Shown here piece by piece: positions 1 through 32,398 of a stretch of DNA of 32,804 nt. Every line of letters starts with the position of its first letter. The stretch's first letter is position 1. The stretch is from Candidatus Aenigmarchaeota archaeon CG_4_9_14_3_um_filter_37_18. Its GTDB lineage: Archaea > Aenigmatarchaeota > Aenigmatarchaeia > CG10238-14. Location of the stretch: positions 1-32,804 of the forward strand of contig PFTQ01000061.1 of assembly GCA_002789635.1 (NCBI GenBank), read 5' to 3'. The position numbers and the translations under genes are program-made. A model generated the notes under the pieces. The model ran no database searches. It saw nothing but the letters and a program-made list of their open reading frames with translations, and had not been told where the DNA came from.

Positions 1-264
1 CAAAAACATTTTTGGGAAACGACGATGGAGGAGTTTCATATTTTCGAGAATTGTTTCTTTGACTTGTTTTTCCATTGAATAGAAGACAAATTTTCCATTG
101 TCAGAATACGCACCACCGACGTTTATTGCTTTCTTTGAGCCATTTTTGTAGACGATAGGTGTTTCTCCAATGAATGACCAGCATCGTCGTGCATCCGCAT
201 CGATATTGAAATGAGCTTGGTCGTAGGTGACGGTGCTTATGTCAGAATCCAAAAGTGAACGTTT
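1..264 (-). CDS. IS630 transposase, DDE catalytic part in the -1 frame (partial at window edge)
   Basis: In the frame one base back from the upstream ORF, the minus strand is open from the poly-A slip site to the left edge. It reads STVTYDQAHFNIDADARRCW and then GETPIVYKNGSKKAINVGGA. The D of YDQAHF fits the first catalytic aspartate of the IS630/Tc1 DDE domain, and the following W/G pattern is typical of the family. There is no independent start codon or ribosome binding site, so expression probably depends on -1 frameshifting at 262-269. The second and third acidic residues lie outside the window. Confidence 0.65.
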
Positions 265-749
265 TTTTTAAACTCATTCTTGAATTCGTCAACGGCTGCT
301 TGGTTTCTACTCTTGTTGCGTGGACGAGGTACTTGCATAGAGCAGCCAATCTTTTTGAGCAATCCACGGCAATGTCGTGGGGTGTATTCTTGCTTGAATT
401 CTTGTTGAATGAATCCTCTGACATCTTTCGTGATGAATCCTCGACGATAACCATCATCGAGCAGTACGCCATCGTTGAGTGCTGATCCTAGCATGCTGAA
501 TTGTTCTTCTGTGAGTCCTGCCTTCCTTCCACGGCCTTCTTTATCTTGCAACCCAATAAATCCTTCTTGTTCAAAGCGTTTTTTCCAAAACGCTACAATG
601 CCGTTGCTGATGCTCAACATCTTAGCAACTTCTCGCTGCGTATATCTTTGGCGAAGATGCCAGAGAATCTGCAATCGCTCACGAACTTTCACATTCCTCT
701 CTGCTTTGAATTTCTTCTCAAAAACACTTGTCTTGACATCAAGAATCAT
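237..749 (-). CDS. IS630 transposase, N-terminal part (helix-turn-helix ORF)
   Basis: This reading frame gives the DNA-binding half of an IS630 transposase. It has two HTH-like segments, one around RYTQREVAKMLSISNGIVAF and a second around residues 90-130 with the typical GFIGLQDKEGRGRK linker of the family. The ATG at 749 is chosen because GAGGTG lies 8 bases upstream; a longer frame reaching 803 has no such site. The frame ends at TAA 237-239, just past a run of eight A (minus strand, 262-269). A -1 slip at A-AAA-AAA joins it to the catalytic frame, so this is probably the first half of one frameshifted protein rather than a finished gene. Confidence 0.75.
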   Translation of the reverse strand: MILDVKTSVFEKKFKAERNVKVRERLQILWHLRQRYTQREVAKMLSISNGIVAFWKKRFEQEGFIGLQDKEGRGRKAGLTEEQFSMLGSALNDGVLLDDGYRRGFITKDVRGFIQQEFKQEYTPRHCRGLLKKIGCSMQVPRPRNKSRNQAAVDEFKNEFKKNVHFWILT

Positions 750-820
750 TATTTGACACCTCACACACAGCAATAGAACTTCCACTATATAAACTTTGCT
801 CAATTATTTAATTCCTACAC

Positions 821-837
821 TATAAAAGCCGAAAAAC
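821..837 (+). repeat. Direct repeat copy 1 (TATAAAAGCCG-type promoter sequence)
   Basis: TATAAAAGCCGAAAAAC at 821-837 recurs at 915-931 with one mismatch. The two copies are 94 bp apart, and the first abuts the presumed IS630 end. Both look like archaeal TATA boxes facing the nuclease gene at 975. Confidence 0.6.
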
Positions 838-914: not shown

Positions 915-931
915 TATAAAAGCCGCAAAAC
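915..931 (+). promoter_or_regulatory. TATA box / direct repeat copy 2 upstream of the nuclease gene
   Basis: The TTATAAAAG core (about 914-922) would place a transcription start near 942, some 33 bases before the ATG at 975. It repeats the sequence at 821-837, so the gene may have two promoters, one of them next to the IS630 end. Confidence 0.5.
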
Positions 932-974: not shown

Positions 975-2048
975 ATGAAAACAGGCGAACAAATAAAAAA
1001 ACTGAAGCCAATGCCAGAATCAAAACCGTGCCCATGCTGCCAATCAGATTTGACAATAAAGCACGGAAAAAGAAAAATCAAGCGCACTATTGTGCAGGTA
1101 TACAAGTGCATGTCATGCGGCAAGTTCTTTTCTGACAGGAAACTGAAGCACAAAAGCTACGACGCAAAAACAATCCTTCGCGCTATCACCCAATACAATA
1201 AAGGGTTCACTCTTGAGCAGGCGTCAAAGGAAATGTCAAAGCGCTTCCATCAACAAATCCCATTGTCCACGCTCCGCTCCTGGATAAAAGAATATTCAAG
1301 CATATGCACCTTCAGAAAATTAAGGGATAAGGCAATCAAGCTCTATCCAGACAGGGATATGATATTCTCCCACAGCCTTCAGCACAATCAGGTATATGAA
1401 TTCCAGCTGCATAAAGCCAAGCTTGAGCTGCAGGCAAAAGAGCTGCCGGAGCAGAAGTTCTCTTTATTGAAAAAATATTTGGAAGAGGTCTCCACTCAGT
1501 CATTTCCCCATCATATATTCCAGCCCAAGCAGGATGCGGAAGAGCTGTCAAGATCATCGCAGATGAAATTTCATACGCTCGATTTTGTCAAGTCAGAAAA
1601 ACAGAGCCTAGCAAGTGAATTAGCATCTTTGGGGCTGCATCTGGCAGGGACAAACAAAGAAAGGCATGAAGCCGTCCAAAACTTTATGATAGCCAATGAC
1701 AGCGCGACAGTATCATGCGAAGTCCCTGTATACCTGACAAATGATGACATCAGTTATTTCAAAGGCAAAGGCTTTCTAGTCGATTTCGAAAACTGCAAAA
1801 CACCTATAACCGGGCATATAGATATACTTCAGATTCGCAATGGCTCTATTCATATCTTAGACTACAAGCCAGGCGCAAGAAAAGTGAATGCTGCAAGCCA
1901 GCTGACAATGTATGCCTTGGCTCTGGCAAGCAGAACAAAACTAGCAGTCAAGGACTTCAGGTGCGCATGGTTCGATGACAGGAATTACTACGAATTCTTT
2001 CCTTTGCATGCCGTCTACAAGCTGAGAAAAGCAGAAAAACTTCCGTAA
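975..2048 (+). CDS. Zinc-ribbon/HTH protein fused to a PD-(D/E)XK nuclease
   Basis: The 357-residue product starts with a transposase-type zinc ribbon (C19-x2-C22 and C45-x2-C48) and an HTH segment (about residues 77-108) resembling the InsA-like domains of IS1-type transposases. A helical linker follows (120-245). The C-terminal third looks like a RecB/Cas4-type PD-(D/E)XK nuclease: E249, GHIDIL with D283, ILDYKP with D296 and K298, and QLTMYALAL with Q309. No DDE domain is present, so it is not a transposase. The start at 975 is chosen for the GCGGAG site at 965-970; an upstream in-frame ATG at 843 has no such site and would add a poor-quality tail. Target and role are unknown; a DNA-repair, defence or element-associated nuclease are all possible. 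Confidence 0.7.
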   Translation: MKTGEQIKKLKPMPESKPCPCCQSDLTIKHGKRKIKRTIVQVYKCMSCGKFFSDRKLKHKSYDAKTILRAITQYNKGFTLEQASKEMSKRFHQQIPLSTLRSWIKEYSSICTFRKLRDKAIKLYPDRDMIFSHSLQHNQVYEFQLHKAKLELQAKELPEQKFSLLKKYLEEVSTQSFPHHIFQPKQDAEELSRSSQMKFHTLDFVKSEKQSLASELASLGLHLAGTNKERHEAVQNFMIANDSATVSCEVPVYLTNDDISYFKGKGFLVDFENCKTPITGHIDILQIRNGSIHILDYKPGARKVNAASQLTMYALALASRTKLAVKDFRCAWFDDRNYYEFFPLHAVYKLRKAEKLP

Positions 2049-2131: not shown

Positions 2132-2314
2132 TTATCCATAAACCTTAACAATCTTAGCCTTAACAATACTCATCCCACCGGTAGTCTCAGACAGAATATT
2201 GCCGCAAACTAAGCATGCTACAGGCCTTGACGCTTTGTTGAAGATGGTCTGCTCATTCTTGCACTTGGGGCAAACTACTTCCAAAAACTTGCTGGTCGGT
2301 TGTTTTGTTATCAT
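2132..2314 (-). CDS. rps27e: 30S ribosomal protein eS27
   Basis: The 60-residue product is a small zinc-finger protein of the small ribosomal subunit. It has the family signature FLEVVCPKCKNEQTIF followed by a second pair in VACLVCGNIL, giving the four zinc-binding cysteines, and it ends in the usual short basic tail. Length and motif order match archaeal eS27. It follows rpl44e by 8 bases on the same strand, third in a gins51-rpl44e-rps27e operon, an information-processing grouping common in archaea. Confidence 0.95.
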   Translation of the reverse strand: MITKQPTSKFLEVVCPKCKNEQTIFNKASRPVACLVCGNILSETTGGMSIVKAKIVKVYG

Positions 2315-3305: not shown

Positions 3306-3533
3306 ATGAGAAATGGATTTTCAAGATTATTCGAATTTAAAATTCTACTGCTAATTCTGGATATAATAGGATCTGGTTTTCTATTTTTGACGATATTCCT
3401 TGGGTTTAGTATAGAAGATAATTTAACAGACTTTCAGAGGGGCTTAATTACAGGTGCAATCTCCCTCTATACATTTTTTGTAACTCTAAATTTGTTGAAT
3501 AAAAAAATGAATCGAAGAAGAGGTGAAATTTGA
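3306..3533 (+). CDS. Small two-helix membrane protein
   Basis: The 75-residue product has two predicted membrane helices, about residues 12-34 (ILLLILDIIGSGFLFLTIFL) and 45-62 (GLITGAISLYTFFVTLNLL), with a basic C-terminal tail NKKMNRRRGEI. This is a helical hairpin with both ends probably inside. The stop codon TGA overlaps the ATG of the next micro-gene (TGATG). The tail codons also contain a strong GAGGTGA ribosome binding site for that next gene, so the two are coupled. No recognised family. Confidence 0.6.
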   Translation: MRNGFSRLFEFKILLLILDIIGSGFLFLTIFLGFSIEDNLTDFQRGLITGAISLYTFFVTLNLLNKKMNRRRGEI

Positions 3534-4104: not shown

Positions 4105-5376
4105 TCATTTCTTCTTCATCTTTCTGAACACATAATTAACAGGGTTCTTTAAGCCTTCACACCGATCATCTTTAGTCTCGCCTAGTACGCTTTTGTAGTA
4201 ATTGTCATTGTCGCAGTTTGGCGGAAGCAGATTTCTAGGCTGCCTCTTATGCCATCTTAATTGAGTCGTGATATAGTTCTTTGGCAGAGGCCTGGGATTT
4301 CTCTGGTTCCATTCTTCCATTTCCTTTTCGATCTTTTCCCATGGCCACCCCATGTTTTGGAGGAATGTTGCCAGCACAAACACAGACCTTTTTCTTCCGT
4401 CTGGAATGCCTTGAAGGATTTTGAGAATGCACGGGGGGAAGTATTTTTCAGGCACTTCTTTCAGTTGCCTCCTCGGGCCTTTGTACTCTTCCTTTTCTTC
4501 TTGCCTGCCATACTTTTTACTCCAATCCAATGCCTCAACCAACAGCCCGCCAGCTTCTGCCAGCTTTATCTCACCTGATAGAAATTTTTTTTCTACTTTT
4601 ATTTTCCAAGAGCTTGCGTCTTCTTTCTGGAACTTATCTAACTGGGATAATAGAATAGGCAAACTGACAAGCAGGGATTTTTCATGCAGGCTATAAGGAA
4701 GGCGGAACATATGCCTAGAAGAGGCAACCATGCTGTCGATCTCAACCAACTTTAATGGGTTAATACCTTCCTCATCTATGCAATCATCTATATTCTTTCC
4801 AACCCTTTCTGCAAGCTTAAGCGGGTTATCCAATTCAAGAAATCTTTCTCTAAGCGTGTCTTTAACATAATCCTTCAGGTATTCAATCACAGCTTTTGGA
4901 GCTTCAGGGTACATCTTCTCTATTTTTTTATCGTCTATCCTCTTTGGGAAAAATTCGAATGGTATTCCTATGTGAAAGCCTTTGCCGCCAGTGCTTTTAA
5001 TAGAATAATTTTTTATTCCATGGTCTTCAAGAGCTTCGCAGAGTGTTTTAACAGTTATTTTTGAAAGCTGAAAATCCGGGCAGTCTGGATCTATTATTAG
5101 GTCCCAACCCACTCTTAGGCTGTCGAGCTGCTGAGGAGCCATCCCAGTTTCCAAAGACATAGGATTAGACCATCTCTCGACTGAGCCATGAAAACTGACC
5201 ACTCCTTTCTTGACCATCTCTACGATATCATCTGGGTAGGCAAGGATGTTAGGCCTTTTGTCAAAGCTGCCATTTTCGTAGACTCCTACTACTTCCCGTT
5301 TTTTTGATTCTTCTAGCAATGCATCCTGCACATCTTTTTTTGAGTAGTACCTCAACACTTTCGAGAAGTTGTTCAT
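4105..5376 (-). CDS. priS: Fused DNA primase: PriS catalytic domain plus PriL C-terminal region
   Basis: The 423-residue protein makes primers for replication. The N-terminal part is an archaeal/eukaryal primase catalytic domain: FHGSVERWSNP (about 62-72), the metal-binding D96-x-D98 in WDLIIDPD, the STGGKGFHIGIP motif (128-139), and the third aspartate D214 followed by SSRHMFRLPYSLH. From about residue 308, KYFPPCILKILQGIPDGRKR and PPNCDN...DDRC...NPVNYV resemble the Fe-S domain at the end of PriL, so the gene appears to be a PriS-PriL fusion lacking the PriL N-terminal domain. Only three of the expected four cluster cysteines are visible (C316, C388, C406). It shares its promoter region with the divergent mntA gene, and TTCATTCCCA lies 10 bases before the ATG. 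Confidence 0.8.
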   Translation of the reverse strand: MNNFSKVLRYYSKKDVQDALLEESKKREVVGVYENGSFDKRPNILAYPDDIVEMVKKGVVSFHGSVERWSNPMSLETGMAPQQLDSLRVGWDLIIDPDCPDFQLSKITVKTLCEALEDHGIKNYSIKSTGGKGFHIGIPFEFFPKRIDDKKIEKMYPEAPKAVIEYLKDYVKDTLRERFLELDNPLKLAERVGKNIDDCIDEEGINPLKLVEIDSMVASSRHMFRLPYSLHEKSLLVSLPILLSQLDKFQKEDASSWKIKVEKKFLSGEIKLAEAGGLLVEALDWSKKYGRQEEKEEYKGPRRQLKEVPEKYFPPCILKILQGIPDGRKRSVFVLATFLQNMGWPWEKIEKEMEEWNQRNPRPLPKNYITTQLRWHKRQPRNLLPPNCDNDNYYKSVLGETKDDRCEGLKNPVNYVFRKMKKK

Positions 5377-5440: not shown

Positions 5441-5473
5441 ATTACTAAATAGAATTATATCTAGGTGTTGAAG

Positions 5474-5767
5474 TTGACAAAAAAGGGCAATATTGATAGA
5501 TTGACAAAAAAAATAATTCCAATACTTAGGCAGCACGGTGTAGTCAAAGCTGGGGTTTTTGGCTCAATTGTCAGGGGCGAAGCTACAAAAAAAAGTGATA
5601 TAGACATTTTGATTCAATTTAAAGGAAGAAAGAGCCTATTGGACCTTATAGGCTTGGAATTAGAGCTAGAAAAATCATTAAGAAGGGACGTAGATCTTTT
5701 GACTTATAATTCTATTCATCCGTTATTGAGGGACAGGATCTTGAACGAAGAGGTAAGGATCATATGA
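5474..5767 (+). CDS. mntA: MntA-type nucleotidyltransferase antitoxin
   Basis: The product is a minimal nucleotidyltransferase. It has the signature GVFGSIVRGEATKKSDIDIL, i.e. GS followed by D-x-D, and the third acidic position in RRDVDLLT. In MntA/HepT systems this enzyme adds AMP to the HEPN toxin and silences it. The start is uncertain: TTG at 5474 has AGGTG 6 bases upstream, while GTG at 5465 would suit an almost leaderless transcript from the TATA box at 5428-5440. The stop overlaps the hepT start (ATGA). Confidence 0.85.
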   Translation: MTKKGNIDRLTKKIIPILRQHGVVKAGVFGSIVRGEATKKSDIDILIQFKGRKSLLDLIGLELELEKSLRRDVDLLTYNSIHPLLRDRILNEEVRII

Positions 5768-6120
5768 AGAAAGATTCTGAAATTTTTATTAGGCATATTC
5801 TTGAGAATATAGAGAAAATAGAAAAACATACAAAAGAAGTCGAGAAAAAGAAATTTTTCGAAAAAGAAGAAATTCAAGATCTGGTGATAAGAAAATTAGA
5901 GATTATTGGCGAGGCAAGCAAAAACCTGCCAAAAGAATTTAGAAATCACCACAAAGAAGTCGAATGGAATAAAATAGGGGGGTTAAGAGACAAATTAATT
6001 CATCACTATTTTGGCGTTGATCTGGATCTAATATTTGATATTGTGAAAAAAGATTTGCCAGAGCTTAAAAAGAAAGTTAAAGATATCTTAAAAGAAATAG
6101 AAGAGAGTAAAAAAACCTGA
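5764..6120 (+). CDS. hepT: HepT-type HEPN ribonuclease toxin
   Basis: The 118-residue all-helical product belongs to the HEPN/DUF86 toxin family. The R-x4-H active-site motif is intact in RDKLIHHYFGVD (about residues 75-86), followed by the family tail WDIVKKDLPELKK-like helix. HepT proteins cut RNA and are kept inactive by the neighbouring MntA through AMP addition at the tyrosine of the HxY motif, here HHYFG. The start overlaps the mntA stop by 4 bases, so both are made together. The downstream 160 bases up to rps17e contain only its promoter region. Confidence 0.85.
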   Translation: MKKDSEIFIRHILENIEKIEKHTKEVEKKKFFEKEEIQDLVIRKLEIIGEASKNLPKEFRNHHKEVEWNKIGGLRDKLIHHYFGVDLDLIFDIVKKDLPELKKKVKDILKEIEESKKT

Positions 6121-7562: not shown

Positions 7563-7748
7563 TTAAATCATGATAATATTTTTCATTTCTTTTTTTGGGA
7601 CAAGAAGTATTTTACCATCTTTTCTTTTAATTAATTCACTTTCTTTTGATAATCTATGTAATTTTCTAGGGTTTCTTTCTAACTCTAAAAGAACATATCT
7701 TATATCTTCTAAACCATCAATAACATCGCTTTTTTTTAAGGTTTCCAT
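7563..7748 (-). CDS. Small protein paired with the DUF7718-like protein, possible antitoxin
   Basis: The 61-residue product (METLKKSDVIDGLEDIRYVL, then LELERNPRKLHRLSKESELI) is helical and charged, with a lysine-rich end. It overlaps the end of the upstream 126-residue gene by 13 bases, the usual coupling of toxin-antitoxin pairs. I do not recognise the family. Together the two genes make up the cassette bounded by the porA-tail repeats. Confidence 0.55.
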   Translation of the reverse strand: METLKKSDVIDGLEDIRYVLLELERNPRKLHRLSKESELIKRKDGKILLVPKKEMKNIIMI

Positions 7749-8116
7749 TTTTTATCACTTTTAAATTTCTCAATATATATTTCCCAGTTAGATTTTATAT
7801 CCTTAATGCCATAGTCAATAGCATGCTTCAAATCCTTAAAAAAACCCAAATTTTCTTTAATTTTATCCCCTTTTAAATTGTAAATATCCCTATGAGAGAT
7901 CTCGTGCGAGTAATTATAGCGGATAACTGGTTTCCATTCTTTTTTCAATAGTCTCTTTGTTTTAACTTCAAGTTGTATCACATAATTTATTGGCTGGCCT
8001 TTTTCAGTATAAATTTCTGTTCTGAATCTAGAAATAGGGTCTCCATTTTCATCTGTTTCCAGAACCCTAATAATCCTCTTTCCATGTTCACTTTTGGTTT
8101 TCATAATAAACCACAT
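7736..8116 (-). CDS. DUF7718-like protein, probable toxin component of a two-gene cassette
   Basis: The 126-residue product has a beta-rich N-terminal half (RFRTEIYTEKGQPINYVIQL) and the block KPVIRYNYSHEISHRDIYNL, followed by a helical DLKHAIDYGIKDIKSNWEIY. I recall small bacterial/archaeal proteins with this pattern (RY-x-x-x-H-x-x-x-H-R-D and a final NW) that occur as two-gene pairs; the family name is from memory and should be checked. The ATG at 8116 overlaps the porA stop (TAATG), so it is translated by coupling to porA; ATG at 8104 is an alternative. Active-site guess: the two His and Asp of SHEISHRD. Confidence 0.6.
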   Translation of the reverse strand: MWFIMKTKSEHGKRIIRVLETDENGDPISRFRTEIYTEKGQPINYVIQLEVKTKRLLKKEWKPVIRYNYSHEISHRDIYNLKGDKIKENLGFFKDLKHAIDYGIKDIKSNWEIYIEKFKSDKKWKP

Positions 8117-9579: not shown

Positions 9580-10095
9580 CTATTCCAACCCCGCGCATTC
9601 TTCGCTCATATGCTCTTGCAATGAACACCAATCCCCAGAGCATTCCTGCACAACTTCATAATGCGTGCAGAATATCTTCCCTATGAATTCAAGAAATTTA
9701 GCTTTGATCTTAACGCCAATCAAGCTTTTCTTCGGTATATCCTTGATAATGACATTAGGCTGATACAAGCCGGCTATCGAATCCTTCTCCTCTTTTGAAA
9801 GGTCATAAGCCCCTTCCTTCTCCATATCATCCAACACTTTCCTGAATTCAGCCTTATCCAAACATTCAGTTCCAACCTGGTTGCAGGTTATGATTAACCC
9901 GTTTTCATTTATCCCGACAGTGTAATCGTCGTATTTCTTCTCCAGTTCTTTGCTGCTCAGTTTCACAAAATTCCCGCTGATCTTCAATGGATCCAAATCA
10001 ATCGGATAATGCAGCTGAACAGTATCTGGCAATACCCTCGCATCAGCAATGCCAAAAGACAGCAAAACCAATCCAATTATCATCCACTTAATCAT
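9580..10095 (-). CDS. Secreted or membrane-anchored protein inserted in the por operon
   Basis: The product starts with a signal-peptide-like segment (MIKWMIIGLVLLSFGIADA), followed by about 150 mostly polar residues. A C-terminal cysteine group (FCTHYEVVQECSGDWCSLQE then EEC) probably forms disulfides outside the cell. ATG 10095 is chosen because GAGG lies 7 bases upstream; ATG 10101 is in frame but abuts that site. The gene overlaps the porD end. No family recognised, and why it sits between porD and porA is unclear. Confidence 0.6.
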   Translation of the reverse strand: MIKWMIIGLVLLSFGIADARVLPDTVQLHYPIDLDPLKISGNFVKLSSKELEKKYDDYTVGINENGLIITCNQVGTECLDKAEFRKVLDDMEKEGAYDLSKEEKDSIAGLYQPNVIIKDIPKKSLIGVKIKAKFLEFIGKIFCTHYEVVQECSGDWCSLQEHMSEECAGLE

Positions 10096-10396
10096 GTACA
10101 TCCCTCACTTTTTTTATGCATTTGACCGGGCAAACATTTGCGCAGACCAAACAACCCTTGCATATAGTATAATCAACATGCGGATAATCATTCTTGTCAA
10201 GGTTTATTGCGGCTTCCGGGCATGATATCCAACATTGCCTGCATTTAATGCATTTGTTCCTGTTGATAATAGGCTTGAAGACTCTCCAGTTGCCTACATT
10301 CCTCTTTACACTATTGCCTTTTGCTTCTATGTACGGAATACCTTTCTTCCCTAGATATTCTATCTTCTCTATACCCACGGGTTTCTTCTTGATCAT
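10088..10396 (-). CDS. porD: Pyruvate:ferredoxin oxidoreductase, delta (ferredoxin) subunit
   Basis: The 102-residue subunit carries two [4Fe-4S] clusters: CIKCRQCWISCPEAAI and CKGCLVCANVCPVKCI, both C-x2-C-x2-C-x3-C-P. It relays electrons from the enzyme to soluble ferredoxin. The N-terminal 45 residues (WRVFKPIINRNKCI) match other archaeal PorD proteins. Its start overlaps the porG stop by 4 bases, giving porG-porD coupling. Confidence 0.93.
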   Translation of the reverse strand: MIKKKPVGIEKIEYLGKKGIPYIEAKGNSVKRNVGNWRVFKPIINRNKCIKCRQCWISCPEAAINLDKNDYPHVDYTICKGCLVCANVCPVKCIKKVRDVHD

Positions 10397-10935
10397 ATGA
10401 ACCTACCATATCCTATTTTTGCGGCCTGTTTGTTTGCCTGTATGACTTTTTCAGGGTATTTTTCAAGCTTTTCTTCTATGGCTTTCTCGAGGTTCTCGAG
10501 TGTTATTTTGTCTTTCAGCCTCTTCACTAACAAGCCAAGCATGACTGTATTTGGAATCGGTTTTCCTATGGTTTCCAGGGCTATTGAGGTTGCGTCAACG
10601 CAGATGAAATTCTTACTGTTCTTTAGCTTTAATTTATCTCGACGAGACGTGTTAATCAATACTAGAGTATGTTCTGTCGAGCCATTGAGCATGTGCTTAA
10701 AGTCAAGCGAGTCATCCAATACTATAATAATGTCTGGCCTGGTTACATAGCCTCTTTCGAGAATGGGTTCCTTGTCTATCCTGACGAAACTGACTAATGG
10801 CGCCCCTCTTCTTTCAGCCCCATACAAGCTAAAGTCCTGAGTTTTAAATCCCGAGAGAAATGCTGCTTTTCCAAATATCTCCGCGCAAGATTTTACCCCT
10901 GCTCCACCCCTGCCATGCACCCTGATTTCAAGCAT
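10393..10935 (-). CDS. porG: Pyruvate:ferredoxin oxidoreductase, gamma subunit
   Basis: The 180-residue subunit shows the family opening VHGRGGAGVKSCAEIFGKAA, the block FSLYGAERRGAPLVSFVRID, and IIIVLDDSLDF. It is the first gene of the operon porG-porD-(secreted)-(membrane)-porA. A GTGAG element stands before the ATG. Products of the operon plus AcdB (14273-14965) would turn pyruvate into acetate with ATP formation. Confidence 0.92.
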   Translation of the reverse strand: MLEIRVHGRGGAGVKSCAEIFGKAAFLSGFKTQDFSLYGAERRGAPLVSFVRIDKEPILERGYVTRPDIIIVLDDSLDFKHMLNGSTEHTLVLINTSRRDKLKLKNSKNFICVDATSIALETIGKPIPNTVMLGLLVKRLKDKITLENLEKAIEEKLEKYPEKVIQANKQAAKIGYGRFI

Positions 10936-11130
10936 CTACTCACTGTTATTATTTGGATTGAATTAATATTAAGTTTATCCAAGGCACAACTCGGCATAAT
11001 TTCTATCAGCCCGAATTTATTTAACATAAATAAGATATTCCGATAATACATATATTATTCGATAGATAAAATTTTAAATATACTGTAACAATATATTAAC
11101 TATAAGTAACATTTTGTAATGGGTGTAAAA
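10936..11130. promoter_or_regulatory. Divergent promoter region of porG and the RHH regulator
   Basis: On the plus strand TTTTAAATAT (about 11072-11081) is a TATA box for the RHH gene, with GGGTG at 11121-11125 as ribosome binding site. Upstream, ATTCCGATAATA (11037-11048) and TATTATTCGATA (about 11053-11064) form an imperfect inverted repeat that could be the operator bound by the RHH protein. Confidence 0.4.
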
Positions 11131-11288: not shown

Positions 11289-12305
11289 ATGAAAAAGAAA
11301 TTTAAAATAATGTCTTTATTCGCAGGCTACGGGGGGATGGATTTAGGCTTTATTATGGCTGAACATCCGGAATCAGCATACGAGATAGTATGGGCTAATG
11401 ATTTTGATAAAACTGCCTGCGAAACGTATCGGAAAAATTTTAAGCATGATATAGTCTGCGGGGATATCTGGGATATTGATTTAGATAAAACCCCAAACTG
11501 CGATGTAATAGTCGGCGGTTTTCCATGCCAGGATTTCTCAATTTTAAGAGGCGACAATCGAGATGGTTTTAAGTCAAAAAGAGGGCTTTTATATACTCGA
11601 TTTGTTGAAGCAGTTTCAAAAAAATCGCCTTTATTTTTTGTGGCTGAAAATGTCAAGGGGCTTTTAACAACTCATAATGGCTGGGCGATAAAGAAAATAA
11701 AAGAAGATTTTGAGAAAGTTGATCATGCCAGCTATGATGTAAAATATAAATTAATTAACTTTGCCGACTATGGAGTTCCGCAGAATAGGGAAAGAGTTAT
11801 TATTGTTGGAGTGAGAAGAGACTTGAAATTAAACTTTGTATTTCCAGAACCGACTCACAAAAATAAGCCTGTTCCAGCAAAAGTTGCATTGGCAGGTGTT
11901 GAAAATGCAAAATTCAACAATGAAAAGATACATATTCAGCCGTCAACAAAGAAAAAACTTGAATTTATTCCTGCAGGCGGCAATTATAAAAATTTGCCTG
12001 GTTATGAAAATAAAAATTGGATGAGTTTAATTTACAAGAGGCTCCATCCAAACCTGCCTTCTCCAACTATTGTCGCCAATGGCGGCGGAGGAACATGGGG
12101 CTATCATTTTTCAGAACCAAGACCTTTAACCAATAGGGAAAGAGCAAGAATACAGACCTTTCCAGATAATTTTGAGTTTGTCGGCAATATCCCCGAAGTT
12201 AGAAAACAATTAGGCAATGCTGTTCCGCCTTTAGGTATAAAACCAATCGCAGAGCAAATTTTAAAGATGGCAAATAAAGAGATAGGGTTAAACAAGTTTT
12301 TTTAA
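11289..12305 (+). CDS. C5-cytosine DNA methyltransferase
   Basis: The 338-residue enzyme methylates cytosine at C5. Conserved motifs: I (MSLFAGYGGMDLGF), IV with the catalytic Cys (VGGFPCQDFS, around residue 80), VI (AENVKGL), VIII (YGVPQNRERVIIVGVRR), IX (LTNRERARIQTFPDNFEF) and X (GNAVPP). The target-recognition region (about 190-270) does not reveal the sequence read. GGTG precedes the start. The adjacent convergent restriction-enzyme-like frame and vsr are broken, so this may now be an orphan methyltransferase. It differs from the second methyltransferase at 32401. Confidence 0.9.
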   Translation: MKKKFKIMSLFAGYGGMDLGFIMAEHPESAYEIVWANDFDKTACETYRKNFKHDIVCGDIWDIDLDKTPNCDVIVGGFPCQDFSILRGDNRDGFKSKRGLLYTRFVEAVSKKSPLFFVAENVKGLLTTHNGWAIKKIKEDFEKVDHASYDVKYKLINFADYGVPQNRERVIIVGVRRDLKLNFVFPEPTHKNKPVPAKVALAGVENAKFNNEKIHIQPSTKKKLEFIPAGGNYKNLPGYENKNWMSLIYKRLHPNLPSPTIVANGGGGTWGYHFSEPRPLTNRERARIQTFPDNFEFVGNIPEVRKQLGNAVPPLGIKPIAEQILKMANKEIGLNKFF

Positions 12306-28767: not shown

Positions 28768-29421
28768 GTGGTATTTTTGGCTGAGATAAACAAGCAATTC
28801 CTTGAAGAAAGCAAAATGAAAGAAATCATCACCAAGAGCGCAGAAGATATGATAGAATCATTGTCAACAATCATGAACAAAAAACTGAATATAATTAGCG
28901 TGGATATTCTTGACTTGAGATTGGAAGATGTAATTCAAAAAATTGGAAAGCCTGATGATATGCATGGATGCATTCAGGTGGAAATCTTCGGAAAATCTGA
29001 GATAAAGAATTCAATGCTGGGTCATTTCCTGCTGCTTATGGATCATGAAAGCATGAAAAAATTCATATCTCTTGCCGGAAGAGAAGAATCTGATGGGTTT
29101 AAAAAACACCTAGACTTTTTCAGGGAGGTTGGGAATATAACCTCCGGATCTTTTTTGAGATTAATTTCTGAGTCGCTTAAATTCGAGTTCAGGGAGTCGC
29201 TGCCAGATTTTTGCTATGACATGCTTGGATCTTGCATGGACTCAGTCTTATGCTCGATTGCTGCTACATCAGAGAAAAGCCTGATTTTTAAAGCTGTTAT
29301 AGGAATGGATGGCTTGAAAATGAATGCAATGCTGCTGTTTTATCCGGATATTTATAATTTGATTGATTTAGTGAGGGAGTCAAGTAAACAACCCACGTTT
29401 AAAAACGGAGGCTTTCCATAG
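28768..29421 (+). CDS. cheC: CheC/CheX-like phosphatase, C-terminus altered by a tnpB element
   Basis: The product of about 217 residues belongs to the CheC/CheX/FliY type, which dephosphorylates CheY-P. One catalytic motif is clear: FFREVGNITSGSFLRLISES with E-x2-N. A second motif is absent or degenerate (MLGSCMDSVL), so it is nearer CheX in having a single site. The start is uncertain: GTG 28768 is used, TTG 28759 overlaps the receiver stop, and ATG 28816 has an AAGAAAG site. The last ten codons after RESS come from the inserted element; without it the frame would end at TGA right there. Confidence 0.75.
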   Translation: MVFLAEINKQFLEESKMKEIITKSAEDMIESLSTIMNKKLNIISVDILDLRLEDVIQKIGKPDDMHGCIQVEIFGKSEIKNSMLGHFLLLMDHESMKKFISLAGREESDGFKKHLDFFREVGNITSGSFLRLISESLKFEFRESLPDFCYDMLGSCMDSVLCSIAATSEKSLIFKAVIGMDGLKMNAMLLFYPDIYNLIDLVRESSKQPTFKNGGFP

Positions 29422-30738
29422 GTGATTCAAAATGTTGCACAGCAATTTTAAAACCAACCGCATCTGGACGGAAGAGCAAGTTTACTTTTGCTCCAGTCTT
29501 GGAACCCTGGATAGAACTCAAGTTAGTGAGACTGTGAGTAATGTTCCGCTCCAAGACAGATTTTATAGCAATAGCCAAAGAGGCTTTTCTGTCGCTATTC
29601 ACGACCTGACCACACTTCCTGCATTTATACAAAACATAATTCACCGAACTATGCCCATTATTGATTTCACCGCATTTGTAGCACCACTTGGAAGTGTGAT
29701 AAGGATCAACCTCGTGAACAGGAACTTGAAACATTTCAGAATTAGATTTAAGGAATTCTGTGAATTTACCATAAGGAATTATGTTGATTTTTTTGTTAGC
29801 TTTTTTGTTGAATTGGCCTCTTCTGCCTTTCAAATTCTTAAGCTTTTCAACAGAAATATAGGCGTTGTAAGATTTGGCAAGATTAATAATTTCTTTTGCA
29901 ATTTGACCGCTTCTTGTTTTAACAAAATTAAATTGTTTGTGTTTAAGCCTTCTCAAACTCTTTTTGGCTCTATCAGAACCCTTATCAGCAAGGCTTTTGA
30001 GATAATCTCTCCTTTTTGTATATTTTCTTTGCCTAAAAGCAACATCACGACCAAAATAGAGCTGTTTAACTACTTTGGAGTTTTCAATGTCAAAAACAGA
30101 AACAGCAGCAAGAGTAGAAGAGCCAATATCAACACCTACAACATATTTTTGGTCGATTGTTTTTTTAGCAAATTCTTTTTCGAGAACTACAGAAATTCTA
30201 CCATCCATCAAAAGAGAAATGTTGTCAAAACTCCAGCCATCTTTAAGAAACATTTGAAATCTTTGAAATTGCTTGTCAGTCTTGACAGGAAGAACAAAAG
30301 TCTTTTTAGGGGAATAAGTAACCTTAAAGCATGGATTTCCTCTTTCAGTCTCAATAAACTTAAACCATCTTTTGTTAAGCCTGATAGAGCATTTAGTGAA
30401 TTTACAACCTTTACTAAGAATATCTTTTCTGCTTTTCCAGATATCTTTTCTAGCTTCTTGAACAATATCGCTTGGAAGGAAGGAGGTTTGTCTTATGTTT
30501 GAATATGTCAGATGGTGTAGATGCGTAGCTGAAAGTGCTAAAGGCAAATCTAAACAGTGCTGGTCAAGAACTTTCAAATATTCGGAAAAGAAACTGTTAA
30601 ATATATTAGACTTATTTCTTGTTAATTCTAAATTATTTAAAACTATGCACTTTCTCACAATCTCACTACTATTGATTAGGAGCAGGCATTCTAATAGTTT
30701 GCCGCAATTCCTCCCATGCCTAAAGAACATGGGTTTCC
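29385..30738 (-). mobile_element. IS200/IS605-type element carrying only tnpB
   Basis: The element holds a tnpB gene and no tnpA. Near its left end (tnpB sense) CCCATG/CATGGG (30713-30718 with 30728-30733) forms a terminal hairpin; the other end has CGTGGGTTGTTTA just after the tnpB stop. Boundaries are inferred by rejoining the flanks: ...GAGTCAAG (to 29384) plus TTGAGGCGG (from 30739) restores a cheC stop and the cheD ribosome binding site. No target-site duplication is seen, as expected for this family. Confidence 0.7.
29399..30658 (-). CDS. tnpB: TnpB RNA-guided nuclease of an IS200/IS605-type element
   Basis: The 419-residue protein has the RuvC-like triad in KYVVGVDIGSSTLAAVSVFD (first Asp), ISVEKLKNLKG (Glu) and VNSDRKASLAIA (last Asp), and a zinc ribbon WCYKCGE...YKCRKCG between the last two. 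TnpB proteins cut DNA guided by an RNA made from the element's right end, protecting the element or aiding its spread. GTG 30658 is the probable start (RKCIVLNNLELTRNK); the frame continues upstream into the terminal hairpin and is unlikely to be translated there. All catalytic residues are kept, so it may be active. The RNA guide should start at the TTTA end near 29385 and read into cheC. Confidence 0.9.
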   Translation of the reverse strand: MRKCIVLNNLELTRNKSNIFNSFFSEYLKVLDQHCLDLPLALSATHLHHLTYSNIRQTSFLPSDIVQEARKDIWKSRKDILSKGCKFTKCSIRLNKRWFKFIETERGNPCFKVTYSPKKTFVLPVKTDKQFQRFQMFLKDGWSFDNISLLMDGRISVVLEKEFAKKTIDQKYVVGVDIGSSTLAAVSVFDIENSKVVKQLYFGRDVAFRQRKYTKRRDYLKSLADKGSDRAKKSLRRLKHKQFNFVKTRSGQIAKEIINLAKSYNAYISVEKLKNLKGRRGQFNKKANKKINIIPYGKFTEFLKSNSEMFQVPVHEVDPYHTSKWCYKCGEINNGHSSVNYVLYKCRKCGQVVNSDRKASLAIAIKSVLERNITHSLTNLSSIQGSKTGAKVNLLFRPDAVGFKIAVQHFESPMESLRF

Positions 30739-31537: not shown

Positions 31538-32398
31538 ATGGCTAAAAATATCTTAAGTCCAATTAATAATATTGTTTCATTTGGGTCTTTTGATCTAAAA
31601 AATTATGCATCAACATATCTAATACGAATAAATGCTGTTGGCGAGCAGCTAGAGTTTTTTGTGAAGGATGCTATTGCAGACTCGTTAAAACTACCCCAAG
31701 ATAAAAAAGAAGATGCTTATTCAAAGGCATTTTCTTATTTAGGAAATCAAAATAACCCGCCAGATATGATTATTAAAGGCAGCGATGCTTTTGAAATAAA
31801 GAAAATAGAAAATCAAAAATCTTCACTGGCATTAAATAGTTCCCCACCGAAAAATAAGCTTTTATTTAGCGATGCTAGGATAACAAATGCTTGCAGGGAT
31901 TGTGAGCCTGATAAATGGGAAGAGAAAGACTTATTTTATGTTATTGGTCATGTTGTAGGAGGGAAGATAAAACACTTGTTTTTCATGCAAGGGACATGTT
32001 ATGCAGCAGACCATAATATTTACGATAAAGTCCACAGCCCTATAAAGAAAAAAGTCGATTCCATTATAGGCTTTCTTGGCTTAGAAAAAGGAGAAACTGT
32101 TGAAATTGGAAAAGTCAAAAGAGTAGACCCTTTAGGAATTACAGAACTGAGGATAAGAGGCATGTGGCAAATACAAAACCCGCTAAAAGTATATGGAGAT
32201 CTCTGTAAGGTGGAAGATAATGATAAATTCCATTTGTTCGCATTGATGAGAAAAGAGAAATACGACTCATTTTCAAAAGAAGATAGCAACAAACTGGAAG
32301 CAAATAAAGACATCTCTATTAAAGACGTAAAAATAAAAGACCCAAACAATCCTTCAAAACTCGCCGAGGCAAAGCTAATATCATTTAAGGGGAGGTAA
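31538..32398 (+). CDS. Type II restriction endonuclease, NgoPII-like
   Basis: The 286-residue product matches the NgoPII family, whose known members cut GGCC: NAVGEQLEFFVKDAIADSL, then GNQNNPPDMIIKGSDAFEIK with KIENQKSSLALNSSPPKN. The D and E-x-K in PDMIIKGSDAFEIKK give the PD-(D/E)XK active site. A cysteine pair (CRDCE) and YVIGHVVGG follow. A GGGG site precedes the ATG. The cognate methyltransferase begins 2 bases after its stop, so the pair is translated together. GGCC specificity is inferred from family membership. Confidence 0.88.
   Translation: MAKNILSPINNIVSFGSFDLKNYASTYLIRINAVGEQLEFFVKDAIADSLKLPQDKKEDAYSKAFSYLGNQNNPPDMIIKGSDAFEIKKIENQKSSLALNSSPPKNKLLFSDARITNACRDCEPDKWEEKDLFYVIGHVVGGKIKHLFFMQGTCYAADHNIYDKVHSPIKKKVDSIIGFLGLEKGETVEIGKVKRVDPLGITELRIRGMWQIQNPLKVYGDLCKVEDNDKFHLFALMRKEKYDSFSKEDSNKLEANKDISIKDVKIKDPNNPSKLAEAKLISFKGR

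Follow-up and report, generated by a model that had tools for sequence, protein, structure and literature searches.

The gene at positions 975..2048 (+ strand) of the window, as we call the whole analysed stretch of 32,804 nucleotides from an Aenigmatarchaeota contig, encodes a protein of 357 amino acids in which a transposase-type zinc ribbon and helix-turn-helix (ZnR-HTH) is joined to a PD-(D/E)XK nuclease. We suggest, with a probability of roughly 0.45, that this fusion protein is a sequence-targeted DNA endonuclease of mobile toxin-antitoxin (TA)/defence islands. The ZnR-HTH half would select a DNA site, the RecB/Cas4-type PD-(D/E)XK domain, to judge from its invariant catalytic residues, would cut it, and the endonuclease would most likely act against competing or invading DNA. 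The pattern in the loci described below is that TA modules accumulate at the 3′ end of the gene, each insertion duplicating a stretch of this end that differs in length. No family or description was found for this combination of domains, which is apparently intact catalytically and is spread among DPANN archaea. The loci record the one-by-one addition of TA modules, with direct-duplication footprints and a comparison of filled and unfilled sites, and a long-standing question, the movement of TA modules without transposases, is made directly testable.

The frame, read from the sequence, begins with the ATG at 975, is open throughout and ends with the stop codon at 2046–2048; it has a second copy in the host as well as relatives elsewhere. 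The preliminary description of this DNA had likened the N-terminal half to the DNA-binding part of an IS1/InsA-type transposase, and the profile searches agree. The zinc ribbon (1029..1118, +) has the cysteines C19-P-C-C22 and C45-M-S-C48, and residues 19–54 matched NCBIfam IS1_IS1595_Zn (NF050000) with 28.3 bits (E = 1.9e-6), above the curated cut-off of 28. It is followed by a helix-turn-helix region (residues 64–107; 1164..1295, +), for which a low-confidence model gave three helices. The transpos_IS1 profile covers residues 19–109 only (E = 4.8e-5; 23.4 bits, cut-off 100), and its alignment takes in the DNA-binding part and leaves out the catalytic one.

The C-terminal half was matched by Pfam PDDEXK_1 at residues 220–328 (E = 2.6e-7; 31.3 bits, gathering score 22), within the region (residues 220–345) where a nuclease had been proposed, and 10 of the 11 aligned relatives matched the same profile independently. 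This match, together with the invariant residues and the order of secondary-structure elements, delimits a PD-(D/E)XK core at residues 227–333 (1653..1973, +). Its motifs run in the order H231, E249, GHxD283, D296-x-K298 and Q309, with the key codons at 1719–1721 (E249), 1821–1823 (D283), 1860–1862 (D296), 1866–1868 (K298) and 1899–1901 (Q309). R230, H231, E249, G280, H281, D283, D296 and K298 are invariant in the nine-member family alignment. When the family was aligned with stand-alone nuclease relatives (alignment A3, 11 members), H231, E249, D283, D296, K298, Q309 and Y313 were invariant, among them all five residues that had been named beforehand as the active site. Since the catalytic residues are invariant over divergent members, selection for activity is indicated, and the nuclease is apparently catalytically intact, as far as conservation can tell. 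AlphaFold models of three sequences were of low confidence (mean pLDDT 48 and 50), too low for the models to be relied on; the C-terminal half in such a model showed the alpha-beta-beta-beta-alpha-beta order of the PD-(D/E)XK fold. A Foldseek search with it gave no significant match, with AddAB and Hjc nucleases among the top hits, and a sequence search of the PDB returned zinc-ribbon proteins only.

The host genome carries a second copy of the gene that is 44% identical to the window copy. The nuclease half was found in 11 of 156 Aenigmatarchaeota genomes, and it is rare outside the phylum, where G302 has a full-length relative and G393 a broken one. Two of the records with relatives bear the name Candidatus Aenigmatarchaeota, and the supposed DPANN origin of the DNA was borne out. 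The two host copies fall in separate clades of the tree, while G054 and G302 are sisters with 100/99 support. Because the tree splits the two copies of the host and unites copies of different phyla, the gene has been transferred horizontally between lineages. Searches of viral_contigs and of plasmids gave no relative, and among phages the sole match was to the ZnR-HTH part, in one archaeal virus record.

Stand-alone nucleases of 200–250 amino acids occur in several other archaeal genomes (G358, G341, G288 and G372) and in most genomes of one family (f124). They are homologous to the fusion protein over residues ~110–343 and have the same invariant residues, but lack the ZnR-HTH half. That half alone matches transposase-like ORFs and ~100-aa ORFs of Aenigmatarchaeota; the latter, found in several genomes (L013, L014, L016, L018, L021, L023 and L029), consist of the zinc ribbon and HTH only. 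It had been proposed that the nuclease replaced the DDE domain of a transposase. The profile searches found no DDE catalytic domain in the frame. Given that the nuclease half has stand-alone archaeal relatives, loss of the DDE domain from a transposase seems a less likely origin than a fusion in which an archaeal nuclease that already existed gained a ZnR-HTH of the transposase type.

Upstream of the window copy lies the N-terminal part of an IS630-like transposase (237..803, −), identified by HTH Pfam matches, and the contig starts inside this element. An IS neighbour had been noted before and is indeed present, but none was seen beside the relatives; the IS is probably incidental, and the TA modules and 3′-end fragments described below are the more telling context. 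Between the element and the gene there are two copies of a TATA-containing 17-mer (821..837 and 915..931, both +), a possible promoter or operator with zero further exact copies in the host genome; the earlier proposal of an own promoter is no more than suggestive. A role of the 17-mer as a genome-wide operator was rejected, with total matches equal to those of a reversed-pattern control (3 vs 3). On the other side, a convergent gene named from its sequence as that of ribosomal protein S27e (2132..2314, −) marks one edge of the inserted region. The S27e gene and glyS are adjacent in two sister species but not in the host, where the order is S27e, fusion gene and IS630-like element, and where glyS is at the end of another contig beside ORFs that read as HEPN, as a nucleotidyltransferase and as the beginning of a surface protein. 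The simplest reading is that an island was inserted between S27e and glyS, a reading in which the link between the two contigs is inferred. No TA gene lies within 2 kb of the window copy, but only 975 bp of contig are available upstream of it.

Several other genes of the window were also noted. A nucleotidyltransferase/HepT-like TA pair (5465–6120, +) was named by its similarity to Pfam-confirmed pairs in relatives. A C5-cytosine methyltransferase gene (11289–12305, +; Pfam E = 1.3e-77) lies ~19 kb from the gene of an NgoPII-type restriction enzyme (31538–32398, +; E = 8.6e-90) on the contig; the two are possibly a split restriction-modification system. There is also a TnpB/OrfB-type protein (29399–30730, −) with a Cas12f1-like TNB match (E = 1.5e-13) and an OrfB_IS605 match below the cut-off.

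The gene resides in TA/defence-type islands of Aenigmatarchaeota. A profile search found a TA gene within 2 kb at 7 of 11 gene loci and at 1 of 73 control loci; the single positive control is a remnant locus of the fusion gene, which leaves 0 of 72 true controls. The TA profiles were made from proteins of these same gene loci, which overstates the contrast somewhat, and its background is other loci rather than genome-wide density. The TA neighbours assigned by Pfam include MNT with HEPN/HepT, PIN, HicAB and UPF0175, and RelE-like toxins were identified near relatives by inspection. AAA-DUF4143 ATPases are further neighbours named by Pfam, and the ATPase of L058 matches the candidate-defence models PDC-S01, whereas the fusion protein itself gave only weak Cas4-like matches with PADLOC. 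A Dam-like methyltransferase gene, named from its sequence, lies near the relative in L052, and large surface-protein-like ORFs are directly upstream of the gene in L050, L051, L053 and L056. This survey of copies and neighbours, which had been recommended, yielded two host copies, a patchy distribution and TA genes as the usual neighbours. The earlier proposal that the domain swap could make a sequence-targeted nuclease, with a role in defence, in the control of elements or in recombination, fits both the invariant active site and this setting.

Repeats were observed just upstream of the nuclease gene in L051 (1669–1772; four copies of AAACYCGTTTG), L053 (8498–8567) and L056 (9024–9098), the last two with the inverted repeat TATCACGAAT. 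They differ between lineages and may be operators. Downstream of the second nuclease copy of the host (L060), the TA modules are separated by a short repeat, CCGCAGAATCCGTTTG (3430–3480, 4778–4828 and 5662–5687), which is unlike the nuclease-end fragments.

In four genomes, 5′-truncated copies of the 3′ end of the gene lie between TA or ATPase modules, next to the gene or at its former site. L050 and L054 have a single fragment each (that of L054 with 87% identical DNA), L059 has four, of which one is weak, and L058 has seven, all in one genome and accompanied by the decayed gene. The motif YEFFPLHAVY (1989..2018, +, in the window copy) is the end point of these truncated copies in other genomes. 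All fragments have the orientation of the gene, and 12 of 13 include its 3′ terminus, the exception being the outermost in L058 (residues 202–267). On the profile, the right ends of the fragments scatter with an sd of 7 nt and the left ends with an sd of 66 nt, although the agreement of the right ends is partly forced, since the profile itself extends little beyond the gene. The informative feature is that nearly all fragments reach the gene end while their starts are scattered. L058 has an array, spanning from the decayed gene to an ORF reading as MCM, in which fragments and single modules (MNT-HEPN pairs and AAA-DUF4143 ATPases) take turns; whether the decay of the fragments strictly follows their distance from the gene was examined there, and the result was not clean. 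At many junctions the module and the fragment meet tail to tail, with the stop codon of the module 2–30 bases from the fragment 3′ end (L050 3132/3135; L058 13994/14003, 9832/9844, 8384/8387 and 6671/6673; L059 8625/8596, 9826/9812 and 11911/11908). The fragment motif was found in 8 of 156 genomes, always alongside the gene or its remnants, and no stray 3′-end copies were found in the host genome.

The ends of other genes are likewise duplicated beside TA modules in L053 and L059. In L059, composite intergenic repeats between TA modules (7563–7814, 9616–9726, 10830–10963 and 11747–11856) are the 3′ ends of other ORFs, one sulfatase-like and one surface-protein-like, and gene-end duplication therefore extends beyond the nuclease gene. 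A comparison of L055 with L056, from the same genus, shows that L055 has gained an MNT-HEPN operon together with a direct duplication, ~55 bp long, of the start of the following gene; the second duplicate sits at a contig end. Insertion with a long, variable target duplication is a footprint described for restriction-modification genes (PMC3031569), and repeated insertions of this type at the 3′ end of the fusion gene would yield nested fragments like those observed, whichever enzyme acts. A mini-repeat was also observed within the coding frame of the nuclease in L056, where an in-frame linker inserted between residues 263 and 277 resembles the C-terminal tail of the same protein (10004–10099 and 10421–10510; 73% identical DNA). 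This linker is in G087, and also in G143 with a frame break.

It might be supposed that the nuclease builds the islands itself: it would recognise and cut its own gene, or alleles of this gene, at the 3′ end, and repair of the break would capture TA modules into arrays. The common 3′ terminus and orientation of the fragments with their scattered 5′ ends, the alternation of fragments with single modules in L058, the many junctions a few bases from a module stop codon and the restriction of the motif to genomes with the gene or its remnants all speak for this idea, which is attractive because the site and the gene travel together. However, the ends of other genes are duplicated alike in L053 and L059, the TA insertion of L055/L056 took place at a different gene and the host genome has zero fragments. 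Since duplications occur at other genes, a nuclease-independent process suffices, and we consider the island-building role doubtful. The specific form in which a transposase-guided PD-(D/E)XK nuclease opens its gene at the 3′ end, so that TA modules are captured serially and each leaves a 5′-truncated copy of the gene end, seems distinctly improbable; it would, if true, amount to integron-like accretion that needs no recombinase.

It is also unlikely that the protein is an ordinary archaeal repair or replication nuclease to which the fusion only adds a new docking domain. As stand-alone proteins, such nucleases are frequent in one family of archaea, and judging from gene names given by sequence, L107 and L108 lie near FEN1-like genes and L107 also near DNA polymerase B; the stand-alone loci L107–L109 have no TA gene within 2 kb. 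The fused form, in contrast, is patchy, horizontally transferred and located in TA islands, unlike a housekeeping gene. We give still less credence to a DNA-binding regulator of its own island whose nuclease half has another role or is rarely used: the lineage-specific repeats upstream of several copies (window, L051, L053 and L056) would suit such a protein, but they vary among lineages, and invariant metal-site residues would not persist in a pure regulator. Integrons have been reported in Aenigmatarchaeota (PMC9668308), and the alternation of repeats and modules resembles an integron cassette array, which would include attC-like sites and depend on a tyrosine integrase. However, IntI was above the cut-off in 0 of 12 genomes, with no match at all in G097, which has the longest array; the fragments fold no better than shuffles, and the repeats derive from the ends of coding genes and vary in where they start on the 5′ side. 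An integron is therefore largely excluded and can be given next to no weight beside the targeted endonuclease that we prefer.

Compared with known systems, the fusion protein has in common with IS1/IS1595 transposases an N-terminal zinc ribbon above the curated cut-off and an HTH alignable to residue 109, but the DDE domain is theirs alone. A search for terminal inverted repeats gave no pair around the gene in the window, in L051 or in L060, and in L050 a weak one (79%); insertion-sequence termini were rejected, none being consistent around the gene. The motif order and the Pfam match are shared with the PD-(D/E)XK superfamily of the PDDEXK_1 (RecB/AddB/Cas4-like) type. With the Cas4 profile, the fusion protein scored 17.1 bits, far below the curated cut-off of 65. 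Cas4 proteins contain an iron-sulphur cluster, of which there is no sign here because C330 is the only invariant cysteine in the 11-member alignment. Integron cassette arrays resemble the islands in that modules in a single orientation are separated by related sequences, but they differ in their integrase and attC folding, whereas the repeats here are coding ends. There is a likeness to insertion with long target duplication, in which a module is flanked by a direct duplication of part of a neighbouring gene and filled and unfilled sites exist in related genomes; that system concerns restriction-modification genes, whereas here archaeal TA/ATPase modules and many repeats at the 3′ end of one gene are involved. 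The accretion pattern belongs to a known class of events and is unusual in being repeated. A search for the full architecture, as had been advised, matched both domains with curated profiles, and the combination was found as a family in none of the searched libraries and in none of the open-access papers; what is new is the variant, in which a PD-(D/E)XK nuclease of TA islands has a targeting module of the transposase type.
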